From positions 744,001 to 808,000 of the forward strand of contig CANMYO010000002.1 in NCBI GenBank assembly GCA_947502145.1: a stretch of DNA of 64,000 bases, written 5' to 3'. Each line of letters starts with the position of its first letter. The stretch's first letter is position 1. Under the pieces are notes generated by a model. That model did no database searches. It worked only from the letters and a program-made list of their open reading frames with translations, and was not told where the DNA came from. Below are positions 41,029-53,496 of this stretch, in pieces. Source of the DNA: an uncultured Paracoccaceae bacterium (GTDB lineage Bacteria; Pseudomonadota; Alphaproteobacteria; Rhodobacterales; Rhodobacteraceae). The position numbers and the translations under genes are program-made.

Positions 41029-41738
41029 AGCGGTTTCACCACGCAAAGCAGATAGCCGGTCTCGGCCTTCGCGGTCTGCCACTGGCTGATTTCGCGCCGC
41101 CCGTCGTCAAGCGACTTGGCCAGCTCGGCATCAGCTTCCGCATCGGGCGCAAGCGCGGCAATACGTGCAGCCATCGGATCATGATACGCCGCCCAGGCGT
41201 CATCGCTCAGCGGGCGCGCCGCCAACAGCTTGAACCCGGCCATGGCGATCTGAGTTGCCAGCGCCGGTTTGCTGGGGATGTCACCTTCGCCCTCCCAAAA
41301 TGCAATGGCCGCATCCGAGGGATCAGGCGTGAAATAACATGGCGCGGAAAAGGCGATCGCCCCGCCCTTTTTCAGACTGCGCCGCCAGCTGCGCAGGGCC
41401 GGCCCAACGCCCAGAAAATAGATTGCGCCAGCGCACCAGATCAGATCAAAGGGGCCTTGCAGGCGGGCCATATCGGCCACTTCAAATCGTGCGCGGGCCT
41501 CGCCTTTGTGGCGCGTGCATGCCGCGTCAATGAAATGCTCTGTCTTGTCGCACCCGAGGACAAACCCCTCGGGGCAGGCAGCCAGCAGTGCCTTGACATC
41601 ATCACCCGGCCCACAGGCCACATCACAGATCATCGCATCCGCAGGTGTGCCCGCGATATCCACCGCCCAGGCGACATCTTCGGGCACGCCCGGCCCTTCG
41701 CGCGGCAGATCCCGATGCAGGGTGAAAAAGGCCTCCAT
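41025..41738 (-). CDS. SAM-dependent methyltransferase
   Basis: MICDVACGPGDDVKALLAACPEG motif I region, FDLIWCAGAIYFLG. Confidence 0.85.
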   Translation of the reverse strand: MEAFFTLHRDLPREGPGVPEDVAWAVDIAGTPADAMICDVACGPGDDVKALLAACPEGFVLGCDKTEHFIDAACTRHKGEARARFEVADMARLQGPFDLIWCAGAIYFLGVGPALRSWRRSLKKGGAIAFSAPCYFTPDPSDAAIAFWEGEGDIPSKPALATQIAMAGFKLLAARPLSDDAWAAYHDPMAARIAALAPDAEADAELAKSLDDGRREISQWQTAKAETGYLLCVVKPL

Positions 41739-43360
41739 CAGGACTTGGCCCCATCGCGGATCAGTTTCCAGTTAATCGCATCAATCAGCGCATCAAAGCT
41801 GGCGTCAACGATGTTGGCGCTGACCCCAACCGTGGACCAGCGGCGGCCCTTGCCATCCTCACTGTCGATAATGACCCGTGTTACCGCTTCGGTGCCGCCA
41901 TCCGTGATCCGCACCTTGAAATCGACCAGCCGCATGTCAGCGATGTAATCTTGGTAAGGCCCCAGATCCTTGGCCAGCGCCCGGCTCAACGCGTTCACCG
42001 GACCCCGGTCAGATCCATCCGGCCCCATGCTTTCGCTGACGTTGAGGAACTTCTTGCCGTGCACCTTGGTCACAACCACGGCCTCGGACAGCGACACCAT
42101 CCGCCCGCGCTTGTTGCGTCGCCGTTCGACCGTGACGCGATAGCGTTTGACCTCAAAGAACGCCGGCAGGCTGCCCAATTCCGCCCGCGCCAACAACTCA
42201 AACGAGGCCTGCGCCGTGTCGTAGGAATAGCCGCGCGCCTCGCGGTCCTTGATCCGTTCCAGAATGCGCGACAGGGCCGGATCGCCCTTTTCGACCGTAA
42301 GCCCGGCCTGCACCAGCCGTTCGCGCAGATTGGATTGTCCGGCCTGATTGGACATCGGCACGATGCGGCTGTTGCCGACCACGGTGGGGTCGATGTGTTC
42401 GTAGGTTGTCGGATCCTTGGCAATCGCGCTGGCGTGCAGCCCGGCCTTGTGGGCAAAGGCACTGGCCCCGACGTAGGGGGCCTGTTTGGCGGGCACCCGG
42501 TTCAGGATGTCATCCAGCATCCGGCTGGCCTTGCGCAACCCTTTGAGCGCATCAAGGCTTACCCCGGTCTCGAACTGGCTGGCATAGGGTTCCTTCAACA
42601 GCAGCGTCGGGATGATCGTTGTCAGGTTGGCATTGCCGCAACGCTCGCCCAGCCCGTTCAGCGTCCCCTGGATCTGACGACAGCCCGCCATCACCGCCGC
42701 CAGCGAATTGGCAACGGCGTTTTCGGTGTCATTGTGGGTATGAATCCCCAGATGGGTGCCCGGGATGCCGCTGGCGATCACCTTGGTGACAATCTCGCTG
42801 ACTTCATGGGGCAGCGTGCCACCATTGGTATCGCACAGCACAATCCATCGCGCCCCCGCGTCAAAGGCGGCGTGGATCGCCTCAAGCGCGTAATCGGGGT
42901 TGGCCTTGAACCCGTCAAAGAAATGCTCTGCGTCAAACAGCGCCTCGCGCCCCTCTGCCACCAGATGCGCGAAGGATGCGCGCAGGTTCTCGGTGTTTTC
43001 CGCCAGCGTGATCCCAAGCGCGGTTTCCACATGGAACGGGTGGCTTTTGCCAACCAGACAAACCGCAGGCGTTTTTGCATTCAGCACCGCCGCAAGGACG
43101 TCATCGTTTGCAGCAGAGCGCCCAGAACGTTTGGTCATGCCAAAGGCGGTCATCGTAGCGCTGGTGCTGACGTCAGCCTCAAAAAACTCTGAATCTGTCG
43201 GATTGGCACCGGGCCAGCCGCCTTCGATGTAATCAAGGCCCAGACTGTCCAGCGTGCGCGCGATCTGGACCTTTTCAGAGGTGGCAAACTGCACGCCTTG
43301 CGTCTGCTGCCCGTCGCGCAGCGTGGTATCAAACAGGAAAAGCCGTTCCTTGCCCATCAC
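41738..43360 (-). CDS. cimA: Citramalate synthase
   Basis: [71 protein letters not shown]. Confidence 0.95.
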
Positions 43361-44790
43361 AGGTCTCCCAGTTTTGCGGCGTCAAAATCGGGGCCGGGTT
43401 GCCAGGTGGCCTGCCCGCCCAAATCCGTCACCTGTACCCCGGCGGCATTCAGCAGGTCGCGCAACTCATCCGCGCGCGCCCAGTCCTTGCCTGCGCGGGC
43501 CGCGGCTCGGGCCGCCAGCAAGGCATCCACCCGCGCTGCCACGTCCGGCGTCACCGCAGTCCCGGCCTCACCGCCGTCAAACTGCGGGATCGCAGCCCAG
43601 TCGTTCACCAGCCCCAGCATCTGCAACCCATAGGCAAAGCCTGCCAGTGTTGTTGGCGTCTTGCCCTTGGCCAGGACATGCAAACGCGCCAATGCGCCTG
43701 AGGTGTTCAGATCATTGGCCAGGACGCCAAGGAACTCCGCATCCGGCTGCCATTTGCCCTCAGCCTTCAATGCGCGGATCAGATCGGGGCGAAATCCGTG
43801 GCCATGCAATATCCCGTACCAGCGCCGCAGCGTCGTTTCCGCCTCGGCACGTTTGGTTTCGGTCCAATCCATGGTCTTGCTGTAATGGGTTGTCAGGAAC
43901 ACCAGGCGGATCACTTCACCCGGAACGCCCTGGTCAAGCAAATCACGCACGGTAAAGAAGTTGCCCAGCGACTTGGACATCTTCTTGCCCTCGACCTGCA
44001 GCATGTCGTTATGCAGCCAGACCCGCGCATAATCACCTTCGGGATGGGCGCATTTGGACTGTGCCAGCTCATTCTCGTGGTGCGGGAACTGCAGATCATT
44101 GCCGCCACCATGGATGTCAAATGTCTCGCCCAAAATGGCGCGGCTCATCGCGGAGCACTCGATGTGCCAGCCGGGCCGACCATAGCCAAAGGGGCTATCC
44201 CACCCCGGCACGCCATCGGGTGACGGCTTCCACAGCACGAAATCCATCGGGTTGCGCTTGTAGGGGGCGACTTCGACCCGCGCGCCGGCAATCATGTCAT
44301 CCACCGAACGACCTGACAGGCGACCGTAGTCGGGAAAACTTTCGACCGAAAACAACACATGGCCCTCGGCCTCGTAGGCGTGACCATCGGCGACCAGCTT
44401 GCCAATCATCGCGACCATGTCCGCGATATGCGCGGTTGCGCGCGGTTCGTGCGTCGGGCGCTGCGCCCCCAACGCATCCATGTCATCATGATACCACTGG
44501 ATCGTTTCCGCGGTGATATCGCCGATTTCGCGCCCGGTCTCTGCTGCCCGCGCGTTGATCTTGTCTTCAACATCGGTGAAATTGCGCACATAGGTCACGT
44601 TGCCCGCGCCGTAGATCTCTTTCATCAGCCGAAACAGCACATCAAACATCAGCACATTGCGGGCATTGCCCAGATGGGCGCGGTCATAGACCGTCGGGCC
44701 ACACAGATACATGCCGACCTTGCCGGGGATGACCGGTTCAAAGTCCTCTTTGCGACGGGACATCGAATTATGGAAACGGATCTTTGTCAT
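43357..44790 (-). CDS. cysS: Cysteinyl-tRNA synthetase
   Basis: [59 protein letters not shown]. Confidence 0.97.
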
Positions 44791-44799
44791 AGCGCCTCA

Positions 44800-44879
44800 C
44801 GCACGGGTTTTCCCTGCGGGCTTAGCGAAATCAAGGATCAGGTGAAACGTGAAAAAGCGGCCCGCTGGAATTCAGCAGG
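44800..44879 (-). promoter_or_regulatory. Candidate attenuator: mutually exclusive hairpins between leader ORF and cysS
   Basis: Minus strand: CCTGCTG-AATTC-CAGCGGG (44861-44879); alternative GCGGGC (44860-44865) with GCCCGC (44816-44821); CGCAGGG-AAAA-CCCGTGCG (44800-44818) just before SD TGAGG and the cysS ATG. Confidence 0.5.
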
Positions 44880-44916
44880 AAATAATGCAGCAGATAATGA
44901 TGCAGGTCTTTTTCAT
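44872..44916 (-). CDS. 14-aa Cys/Ile-rich leader peptide upstream of cysS-cimA
   Basis: ATG AAA AAG ACC TGC ATC ATT ATC TGC TGC ATT ATT TCC TGC TGA = MKKTCIIICCIISC. Confidence 0.7.
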   Translation of the reverse strand: MKKTCIIICCIISC

Positions 44917-44934
44917 GGGGCCGCAATAGCAGCC

Positions 44935-45480
44935 CTAACTCCCGCTGTCGAGCATTTCTGTCAGCGTGATGATGGTGTTGAGGTTGCGGGCGGTGAACTC
45001 CGTACCGGTAATGACCTTGTCGATTCGCGCCATCAGCTTGGATCGTCCGACCCCCTCGGGTGCATTAAACCACACCGTCTGCCCGACCACCGCCAGCCGT
45101 TCGGTTGCCGAAATCCAGCGATCCCGCACCTCGGTGTCAATGACCGGCGGTTGGGTGCAAAAGAAGCCATGCACCGCCTTTCCACTGTCGCGATCAAAGG
45201 GACAGCCCTGCAATGTCGTCGACATCGCCGCGCTGGAAAGCACCAGCACCGGCACATCGACATTCATCTGTTCGCGCAAGCCTTGCGCCAGTTGCGCAGA
45301 TAGCGACTCAGCACGGCCAGCTGCGGCAAACACAAGGTTCCCCGATGCGATGTAGCTCTGCACATCCTGCCAGCCAAACCCGTTGGCCATGGCGCGAAAT
45401 GCGGCCATCGGCACCTTGTTGTGTCCGCCCACATTCACACCGCGCAGCAGGGCAACCCATCTTGTCATTTCTGCCGTCAT
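44935..45480 (-). CDS. DUF1697 family protein
   Basis: MTRWVALLRGVNVGGHNKVPMAAFRAMANGFGWQDVQSYIASGNLVF. Confidence 0.88.
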   Translation of the reverse strand: MTAEMTRWVALLRGVNVGGHNKVPMAAFRAMANGFGWQDVQSYIASGNLVFAAAGRAESLSAQLAQGLREQMNVDVPVLVLSSAAMSTTLQGCPFDRDSGKAVHGFFCTQPPVIDTEVRDRWISATERLAVVGQTVWFNAPEGVGRSKLMARIDKVITGTEFTARNLNTIITLTEMLDSGS

Positions 45481-45496
45481 GCCGCACGATCCCTCC

Positions 45497-45832
45497 ATGT
45501 CACGCAAAATCGTAAATGAAATCTGTAAGGCGTATCCGGGCGCTACGCTAGATCACAACCTTGGCGAAGGGCACGACAGCTGGAAGGTCGGCGGCAAGCT
45601 TTTTGCGATCACCGGCAGTCTGGGCGACAGCGTGTCGGTCAAGACAGACAGCATCGAAACCGCGCAGATGCTGATTGACGCAGGCGTCGGCAGCAAGGCC
45701 CGTTACCTGCACCGGTCGTGGATCGCGATCCCGCTGGACATTGACCCCGACGAACTGCGCCATCGGATCAATGTCTCTTACGAGCTGATCAAATCCAGCC
45801 TGTCCAAAAAGGCTCAGGCCGCCTTGGCATAG
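45497..45832 (+). CDS. MmcQ/YjbR family DNA-binding protein
   Basis: PGATLDHNLGEGHDSWKVGGKLFAI, YLHRSWIAIPLD, SYELIKSSLSKKAQAAL. Confidence 0.82.
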   Translation: MSRKIVNEICKAYPGATLDHNLGEGHDSWKVGGKLFAITGSLGDSVSVKTDSIETAQMLIDAGVGSKARYLHRSWIAIPLDIDPDELRHRINVSYELIKSSLSKKAQAALA

Positions 45833-51495: not shown

Positions 51496-51948
51496 TTTTC
51501 ACTCCATTCTTGGATGTTTGCGTATGCCCCCATTACCTGCGTGCGCTCCGGCGCTTTTCCAAGGGCCTCACACAGAGGTGAGCGAAAAAATGCGGTAAAT
51601 TAAACGTGTAAGATCAGCGTATTGGCGAAAAATGGCGCAGTACGGCCGTGACCGGCGATGTTTCGCAAATCGTGATCGGCAAAATGCGGTTTTCCGCCAA
51701 TTCGGCGTGATCAGGTCTTGAAATCGCGATGTCGCAAACAGGTGCTGATGTCGCTCCCGGACAAGACCGCCCAGCCACCCCGCCCATGATGGCTCAACAA
51801 CATCAAAGGGATCTCATGCGCAGCGATCTGGTTCAACTTGCCCGCATTCGCCGCACCATCGGGGCGCGGCGCGGGCGTGCCGCACGGGGCAGACCGGGCG
51901 AAAACCTCGACTGAACCTCTCCCTTCCCGTTGTTTTGAAAGTTCCGAT

Positions 51949-53496
51949 ATGACTGACACCCGCTCTGGCCGTCCCACGCGTTCCGGTGGCCGTGCCGCAC
52001 GCACTGCCGCCCGTGCCGCCCCACTGGAAGAGGCGCTCCGCCCGATCCGCGCTGGCATGTCCGGGGGGCGGTATCGCCCGCTCACCGACGCCGATGTCAC
52101 CGCGATCCACAACGCGGCACTGACCGCGTTGGAGGAGATCGGCCTCGCTGACGCCCCCCCTTCGGGCATTGAATATCTGACCCGTGCCGGGGCAAATCTT
52201 GGCGATGATGGCCGCATCCGCATCCCCCGCGCGCTTGTTGAGGATATGCTGGCACTGGCCTGCACTGACCTGACGCTCTGTGGGCGGGATCCGGCCTATG
52301 ATCTGCAGTTGAACGGCACCCGCGTGCACTATGGCACCGCCGGTGCGGCTGTGCATATGGTCGACGTTGACGGGCGCAACTACCGCGAAAGCACCGTGCA
52401 GGATCTGCATGATGCGGCGCGGATCGTGCAGCAGCTCGACAACATCCACTTTTTGCAACGTCCGATGGTGGCCCGTGACATCACCGACAACAAAGAGATG
52501 GACCTCAACACGATCTATGCCTCCTGTGCCGGGACGTTGAAACACGTTGGCACCTCGTTTACCGAGCCCAGCTTTGTCCCCGACGCGCTGGAGATGCTGC
52601 AGATGATTGCGGGGGATGAGGCGACATGGCGCGCGCGGCCCTTCGTATCCAACTCCAATTGCTTTGTGGTACCGCCGATGAAATTCGCCACCGAAAGCTG
52701 TCAGGTGATGGAGGCCTGCATCGCGGGCGGAATGCCGGTGCTGTTGCTCTCGGCCGGTCAGGCCGGGGCCACTGCGCCCGCGCCGATTGCCGGGGCCATC
52801 GTGCAGGCCGTGGCCGAATGTCTGGCTGGCGTGGTCTATGTCAACAGTATCGCGCCGGGTCATCCGGCGATCTTCGGGACCTGGCCCTTTGTCTCTGACC
52901 TGCGCACCGGGGCAATGTCAGGTGGTTCTGGCGAACAGGCCCTGCTGACGGCAGGATGCGCACAGATGCACCGGTTTTACGGCCTGCCCGGCGGGGCGGC
53001 GGCAGGGATTGCCGATTCAAAGCTGCCTGACATGCAGGCGGGCTGGGAACAGATGTGCTCCAATGTGATGGCCGGCCTCGCGGGGCTGAACATGGTTTAC
53101 GAGGCCGCGGGCATGCATGCCTCCTTGCTGGGGTTCTGCCATGAAAGCCTGATTCTCGGGGATGATCTGCTGGGGCAGGCGATGCGCTGCGTACGCGGGA
53201 TCGAGGTCAACGACAGCACCATCGGGCTTGAGACGATGCGCGATGTCTGCCTGAATGGTCCGGGGCACTACCTTGGCTCTGACCAGACCCTGGCCCTGAT
53301 GCAGACCGAATATGTCTACCCCAGCACGGCTGACCGCTCCTCACCCAAGGAATGGGAAGAGAATGGCAAGCCTGATCTGCTGCGCAACGCCATTGCCCGC
53401 AAAGAGATGATCCTGGCCGAACGCTCCGCCGCGCGGTTCGATCCGGCGCTGGATCAGGCCCTTCGGGAACGGTTCAACATCCATTTGCCCGCTTAG
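51949..53496 (+). CDS. Trimethylamine methyltransferase (MttB) family protein, non-pyrrolysine type
   Basis: 515 aa continuous ORF: GGRYRPLTDADVTAIHNAALTALEEIGLADAPPSGIEYLTRAGA..., MLLLSAGQAGATAPAPIAGAIVQAVAE-like region. Confidence 0.88.
   Translation: MTDTRSGRPTRSGGRAARTAARAAPLEEALRPIRAGMSGGRYRPLTDADVTAIHNAALTALEEIGLADAPPSGIEYLTRAGANLGDDGRIRIPRALVEDMLALACTDLTLCGRDPAYDLQLNGTRVHYGTAGAAVHMVDVDGRNYRESTVQDLHDAARIVQQLDNIHFLQRPMVARDITDNKEMDLNTIYASCAGTLKHVGTSFTEPSFVPDALEMLQMIAGDEATWRARPFVSNSNCFVVPPMKFATESCQVMEACIAGGMPVLLLSAGQAGATAPAPIAGAIVQAVAECLAGVVYVNSIAPGHPAIFGTWPFVSDLRTGAMSGGSGEQALLTAGCAQMHRFYGLPGGAAAGIADSKLPDMQAGWEQMCSNVMAGLAGLNMVYEAAGMHASLLGFCHESLILGDDLLGQAMRCVRGIEVNDSTIGLETMRDVCLNGPGHYLGSDQTLALMQTEYVYPSTADRSSPKEWEENGKPDLLRNAIARKEMILAERSAARFDPALDQALRERFNIHLPA

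Follow-up and report, generated by a model that had tools for sequence, protein, structure and literature searches.

The locus considered here raises the question of how a gene for a tRNA synthetase and a gene for amino acid biosynthesis might be controlled together, and of which amino acids would be read in doing so. The window, i.e. the whole stretch of 64,000 nucleotides that was analysed, carries cysS followed by cimA, and the cimA start overlaps the cysS stop by 4 nt. A first-pass annotation had pointed to a short ORF rich in Cys and Ile codons before cysS, and had named pairing arms for its RNA (1:2, 2:3 and a hairpin beside the cysS Shine-Dalgarno sequence, SD). The ORF is there, on the minus strand at 44916..44872, with 14 codons of which 4 are Cys (all TGC) and 5 are Ile, and all of the arms are present in the sequence. 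The features are the following.

44935-45507, minus strand: DUF1697-like ORF, upstream of the leader ORF.
44926..44951, minus strand: promoter-like elements TCGACA (44951-44946) and TGCTAT (44931-44926), from the sequence and an ATG-anchored logo.
44872..44916, minus strand: leader ORF MKKTCIIICCIISC, 14 codons and TGA, from the sequence; kept in 5/5 same-genus genomes and in 117/130 family genera.
44878..44889, minus strand: putative control codons -5 to -2 (Cys10, Ile11, Ile12, Ser13), from the masking model and codon conservation; stalls here are predicted to favour 2:3.
44873..44879, minus strand: arm 1, CCTGCTG, overlapping the last codons and the stop; 83% of cells paired in 57 genera.
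44861..44867, minus strand: arm 2, CAGCGGG (GCGGGC at 44865-44860), followed by a U-rich tract.
44816..44821, minus strand: arm 3, GCCCGC; the 2:3 helix is paired and covarying.
44794..44821, minus strand: 3:4 hairpin, from arm 3 to just past the cysS SD (GAGG, 44798-44795).
43357..44790, minus strand: cysS, cysteinyl-tRNA synthetase; TIGR00435 (NCBIfam), 434.5 bits, cut-off 340.
41738..43360, minus strand: cimA, citramalate synthase; TIGR00977 (NCBIfam), 580.7 bits, cut-off 450.

The window leader reads ATG AAA AAG ACC TGC ATC ATT ATC TGC TGC ATT ATT TCC TGC TGA, with the tandem Cys codons TGC TGC as codons 9-10. The leader region is single-copy in the genome and no Rfam 15 family matches it at the gathering threshold. 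The fold of the lone window sequence is unexceptional (z -1.45), and support for the element must therefore come from comparison. Elsewhere in the window the Rfam model PYLIS_3 (pyrrolysine insertion sequence of mttB) matches positions 53008-53107 on the plus strand with 43.7 bits, which is above gathering. The match sits inside an ORF (51838-53496) which reads through it; since this ORF has no in-frame stop it is probably an MttB-like gene of the non-pyrrolysine kind that resembles the PYLIS_3 model in sequence, rather than a Pyl site.

For the comparison cysS loci were sampled from one genome per Rhodobacteraceae genus, with the addition of the window's genus and of named genomes. Among named relatives, those closest to the window in their cysS protein belong to Rhodobacterales, e.g. 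Oceaniglobus. Orthologous cysS upstream regions had been expected to carry a Cys-rich short ORF with conserved pairing, and this is what was found: the ORF is present in 117 of the 130 Rhodobacteraceae genera sampled, and the pairing is conserved. The leaders of the family mostly have 13-14 codons and a stop 75-100 nt upstream of cysS. All 5 of the 5 other species of the genus (~83% cysS identity) have MKKTCIIICCIIPC or a near variant, followed by the same downstream arms. A chance origin of the element was rejected on account of its conservation across genera. Within the genus, the end of the DUF1697-like gene is present upstream of the leader in L114-L116; in L112 and L113 the sequence before the leader differs, and leader and arms are unchanged. 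To judge from these sequences the element travels with cysS-cimA and not with the upstream gene.

As in trp-type attenuators, the leader is rich in codons for the amino acids that would be regulated. Over the 117 genera 33% of the body codons are Ile and 20% are Cys, against ~6% and ~3% predicted by nucleotide shuffling of the same codons, the percentages being somewhat inflated since these leaders were chosen by a Cys+Ile score. Leu, Val and Phe make up 1.9%, 0.8% and 0.7% of the body codons (26, 11 and 9 of 1342 leader codons). The codon at position -3 is Ile in 92-94% of the Rhodobacteraceae leaders, and positions -5 and -4 are Cys in 68% and 63%. Tandem Cys codons occur in 81 of the 117 leaders, in 75 of these 81 beginning at codon 8-10 from the conserved AUG. 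At codons -7 and -8 the Ile wobble base is free, with ATT and ATC both in use, which points to selection at the level of the amino acid. Of the 108 Ile codons at -3, 101 are ATT and 7 are ATC, and cysS itself mostly uses ATC. Part of the conservation could thus be at the RNA level; the bias could reflect a preference for the slower wobble-read codon or an RNA constraint.

The link to the second amino acid comes from cimA. In Rhodobacteraceae the leader is found in 114 of 122 loci in which cimA adjoins cysS, against 1 of 11 in which cimA is absent or elsewhere (Fisher p 1.3e-9, a Cys-only leader being counted as present and kinship not being corrected for). In Hyphomicrobiales, where the layout is the same, the corresponding numbers are 77 of 89 loci with cimA downstream and 0 of 8 without (p 8.7e-7, again not corrected for kinship). 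The cases are drawn from many genera, and no recognised leader was seen in 8 of the 122 Rhodobacteraceae and 12 of the 89 Hyphomicrobiales loci that have cimA. In Falsigemmobacter cimA lies on another contig and the leader is also absent. In one genus, that of genome G106, cimA is missing in 3/3 species (L010, L251, L252) and the leader is kept, as MDWICCLCRA, MDWICCLCRA and MEWICCPC: the Cys codons remain, Ile is down to one, and codon -3 is no longer Ile. These peptides look like what dual sensing predicts, and not like what a Cys-only sensor for cysS predicts. The three loci also share a GATGACTTGCTAAGCCGCGCTCA-like segment before cysS. Taken together, the Ile codon content, the leader-cimA association and the Cys-only leaders of the G106 genus give strong comparative support to the early idea of a dual Cys/Ile sensor tied to cimA.

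Rhizobium, Ensifer and Mesorhizobium, with a leader and no cimA within 1.9 kb, were considered as counter-examples and dropped, as cimA is found 2.4-3.2 kb downstream on the same strand. The interval holds extra same-strand genes (L092, L100, L102, L104, L106), among them, in L100 and L104, one for a protein with the motif CHCRMCQK, probably of the GFA/formaldehyde-activating type; L092 has an ORF there that resembles proline iminopeptidases. Five genomes which seemingly have a leader and no cimA (G115, G159, G183, G196, G303) were left out; their contigs break off within cysS or shortly behind it. How many Ile codons a leader has is unrelated to the size of the gap between cysS and cimA (rho -0.03, p 0.79).

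The named Rhizobiales loci have different but analogous leaders, e.g. MKTVICIICRKIIR and MKTSFAICGICIIG, and their arms are of the type GCTAGC, GCTGGCC and GCCCCGGCC. In a survey of 120 Hyphomicrobiales genomes short ATG ORFs were picked by a TTGAC at about -36, with no criterion for the peptide. This promoter-only selection is free of the Cys+Ile score bias and its result agrees: the 66 ORFs found have 26% Ile and 10% Cys codons. Ile stands at codon -3 in 97% and at codon -4 in 82% of them, with both ATT and ATC in use, and in this order Ile appears to be the more conserved signal of the two.

The first-pass annotation had also noted that no strong SD precedes the leader ATG. The observation stands, and our correction is that it is a class-wide trait of a probably leaderless ORF. 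SD-like motifs are found before the leader ATG in 18 of 117 genera, which is about chance by our estimate, and before cysS in 106 of 117. A logo of the same 117 genera anchored at the ATG shows conserved bases at -36..-33 (T T G G), at -12/-11 (T or A, then A) and at -1 (C, 85%); in the window the TA at 44928-44927 is at -12/-11 from the A of the leader ATG. Hyphomicrobiales have CTTGAC and a -10-like ATAA at the same spacing. The window promoter was not picked up by a generic sigma-70 scan, and the promoter call rests on the logo. Since promoter-like bases are placed at a fixed distance from the AUG and an SD is lacking, the mRNA is probably leaderless, the transcript starting at the A of the AUG.

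The pairings were analysed in an alignment of 57 genera. The 2:3 helix is 88.6% paired, with changes on both sides in 4 of 7 pairs, one of which is G-C in 18 and C-G in 17 genera; its covariation score exceeds all 500 shuffles, and registers slid along the alignment fall to 27-48% paired. The 1:2 helix is 83% paired against 29-48% when slid. Its covariation is weak, consisting mostly of one-sided U-G/C-G changes, and pairs changed on both sides do not exceed the shuffles. When each species' own arms were compared with arms from other species over 110 genera, the own arms paired better for 2:3 (p 9e-6), 3:4 (p 1e-5) and 1:2 (p 0.008), it being noted that these swap controls, like the shuffles, leave relatedness in. 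The probability that the SD pairs with arm 3 is 0.45 for own and 0.38 for swapped arms (p 6e-4), and the 3:4 region is weakly more stable than its shuffles (mean z -0.50). RNAalifold returned no consensus structure for an alignment of 115 sequences, as expected since the alternative pairings overlap and the spacing is uneven; arm-swap tests and counts of hand-specified pairs were used in its place. The U-tract as mainly an arm of 2:3 was dropped, as an extension of 2:3 into it is unsupported (own versus swapped p 0.41). With compensatory changes in 2:3 and better pairing within species for all three helices, the test of conserved pairing came out on the side of the first-pass annotation: mutually exclusive 1:2, 2:3 and 3:4 pairings are conserved across species, as in trp-type attenuators.

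How a stalled ribosome might choose between these pairings was analysed with a masking model, in which everything up to 13 nt past the start of the A-site codon is hidden. It had been proposed that stalling at the Cys codons of the leader favours 2:3, and the model agrees for stalls at codons -5 to -2. In Rhodobacteraceae the mean P(2:3) is 0.46-0.54 at codons -5 to -2 versus 0.21 at the stop and 0.17 for ribosome-free RNA. The window gives 0.47-0.69 at codons -5 to -3 versus 0.06 at the stop and 0.00 ribosome-free, and Hyphomicrobiales 0.44-0.47 at codons -4 to -2, where the codons are Ile, versus 0.15 and 0.13. The placement of the sensor codons thus coincides with the modelled structural switch in two orders. 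The mean change in modelled SD accessibility is small, from 0.39 to 0.43; the window shows a larger one, with 0.24 for a ribosome at the stop and 0.64 for one at -4/-3.

Our main reading, to which we give a probability of roughly 0.7, is that the element is a ribosome-mediated attenuator of the cysS-cimA operon sensing both Cys-tRNA(Cys) and Ile-tRNA(Ile). Transcription would start at or next to the leader AUG, as the conserved bases suggest, and the peptide would be translated from a leaderless mRNA whose Cys and Ile codons, as comparison indicates, are concentrated just upstream of arm 1. According to the folding model a ribosome whose A site holds one of the codons -5 to -2 would cover arm 1, so that arm 2 pairs with arm 3; with the ribosome at the stop, or with none, arm 3 would be free to fold around the cysS ribosome-binding site. 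The 2:3 form would be ON and the 3:4 form OFF, acting in Rhodobacteraceae mainly on cysS translation, and the effect would reach cimA by coupling or polarity. A shortage of either Cys or Ile would then raise cysteinyl-tRNA synthetase together with citramalate synthase, the entry to isoleucine synthesis.

A motif called uORFC-8-2 has been described (Brewer et al., 2021, RNA Biol, PMC8632094); its 145 examples all lie before cysS, and all come from Rhodobacterales. The motif has tandem Cys codons (mostly UGC), two stems, the first of which contains the Cys codons, and a U-run at the end which was read as an intrinsic terminator; transcription attenuation was proposed (PMC8632094). The window element likewise lies upstream of cysS in Rhodobacterales and has an AUG-started uORF, tandem UGC codons and a U-rich tract, and it is very probably a member of uORFC-8-2. 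The tandem Cys codons of the published motif are "usually at positions 14 and 15" of the peptide (PMC8632094) by that paper's numbering, whereas those of the window are codons 9-10 when counting starts at the conserved AUG. The name uORFC-8-2 was not found in the other literature searched. The claim of a Cys attenuator is thus not new, having been proposed in 2021 (PMC8632094). Isoleucine, citramalate, cimA, leaderless translation and Rhizobiales do not occur in the text of that paper. The class to which the window element belongs goes beyond the published motif in its Ile codons, its dependence on cimA, its occurrence in Hyphomicrobiales and its probable leaderless start, and in having the arms of 2:3 and 3:4 past the U-run described there. 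Within the literature searched, the proposed sensing of Ile, the dependence on cimA, the probable leaderless start and the occurrence in Hyphomicrobiales appear to be new.

The published proposal is also the rival that has to be weighed with most care. It would make the 1:2 hairpin and the U-tract a terminator, which a ribosome stalling on the Cys-Cys pair would block, with Ile incidental. The first-pass annotation had seen no long U-run after 3:4; there is none, but a short U-tract does exist after arm 2, and in a terminator scan the sole terminator-like site is the window hairpin with five U at this place (CCGCTTTTTC). The minimum free energy fold of the window also has one stem that holds the Cys codons, and a 1:2 stem followed by five U. 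The U fraction is 0.4-0.63 at 3-13 nt past the arm 2 core in most genera, and the frequency of tandem Cys codons fits as well. The tract would nevertheless make a poor terminator, as its longest U run is 2-4 in 101 of 107 genera and it begins ~3 nt past the stem core, and since the hairpin contains the stop codon a terminating ribosome would cover it too. Past the proposed terminator there are further conserved arms, 3 and 4; conservation is at least as high for Ile as for Cys; and genomes that have lost cimA and retain cysS nearly always lack the leader. A Cys-only transcription attenuator is for these reasons unlikely. Nor does 3:4 appear to be an intrinsic terminator in Rhodobacteraceae, because it ends at the cysS SD and no T-run follows arm 3 (five or more T in 0 of 110 genera); arm 3 lies 31-39 nt from the cysS ATG in the middle half of the loci. 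The element may work like the trp attenuator, but we do not file it as a trp-type transcription attenuator. Sequestration of the cysS start site from translation is the output that we favour in Rhodobacteraceae, and since the mean modelled SD release is small it is an output that we infer. Unlike Rhodobacteraceae, the Rhizobiaceae-type locus L283 has six consecutive T behind arm 3, ~60 nt before cysS; the output in that lineage may be termination, and may differ between lineages.

Two further readings keep the leader and change what follows from it. The output could be termination by Rho within the untranslated stretch that separates cysS from the stop of the leader, a stretch that 2:3 would expose or hide. 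The part up to arm 3 is pyrimidine-rich, but the whole stretch is just ~80-90 nt, which is short for Rho loading, and the 3:4 arms contact the SD. This makes a Rho output improbable, even if Rho has been proposed for terminator-less Cys leaders of Mycobacterium (PMC1262725). Alternatively the hydrophobic Cys/Ile peptide might itself be the product, through nascent-chain arrest or in trans, codon decoding not being the signal. Such trans-acting leader peptides are known in this class of bacteria (peTrpL, PMC7298713). Here Ile is used nearly to the exclusion of Val, Leu and Phe, the residues differ in order and number between leaders, and in two bacterial orders the conserved codons fall where the model places the switch, and we regard a peptide acting as product as very improbable.

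The dual sensor may be compared with other leaders. The Sinorhizobium meliloti trpL attenuator (peTrpL, rnTrpL) is also an alphaproteobacterial amino-acid attenuator with a leaderless leader ORF, of 14 amino acids and starting at the AUG (PMC7298713, PMC10117765). It differs in sensing Trp, not Cys or Ile, and in controlling trpE(G) by transcription termination. Mycobacteria have leaderless Cys-rich uORFs (PMC4633059) and actinobacteria have Cys leaders (PMC1262725) that are similarly short and leaderless, with Cys codons near the stop and before cysteine genes, and some are without terminators. They belong to another phylum and precede cysA2 or cys operons, not cysS-cimA, and the consulted parts of these two sources do not report Ile. 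Homology with these leaders is not expected.

In the enterobacterial ilvGMEDA, ilvB and thr leaders one peptide senses several amino acids; these are products of one pathway, whereas the cysS-cimA leader would combine the substrate of a tRNA synthetase (Cys) with the end product of another pathway (Ile). A link between the two is plausible since in E. coli threonine deaminase is inhibited by excess cysteine, which disturbs the isoleucine supply, and this enzyme is not needed on the citramalate route. We consider it likely that Rhodobacterales and Hyphomicrobiales share an ancient attenuator in which one leaderless mini-gene reads Cys and Ile, amino acids unrelated to each other, for cysS and cimA as an operon of two pathways, with Ile the more conserved and the codons re-tuned upon loss of the target gene. 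If so, the published reading (Cys only, Rhodobacterales only, transcription termination) would be incomplete. The present finding corrects and extends the motif uORFC-8-2 and supplies an order-wide sequence collection, and the G106 genus, with cimA and the Ile codons both lost, provides a natural experiment in the re-tuning of an attenuator. If the dual sensor is true, a single sensor read by the ribosome would tie the tRNA synthetase for one amino acid to the pathway that makes another, and one would have to ask why the supplies of Cys and Ile are co-regulated in Alphaproteobacteria.
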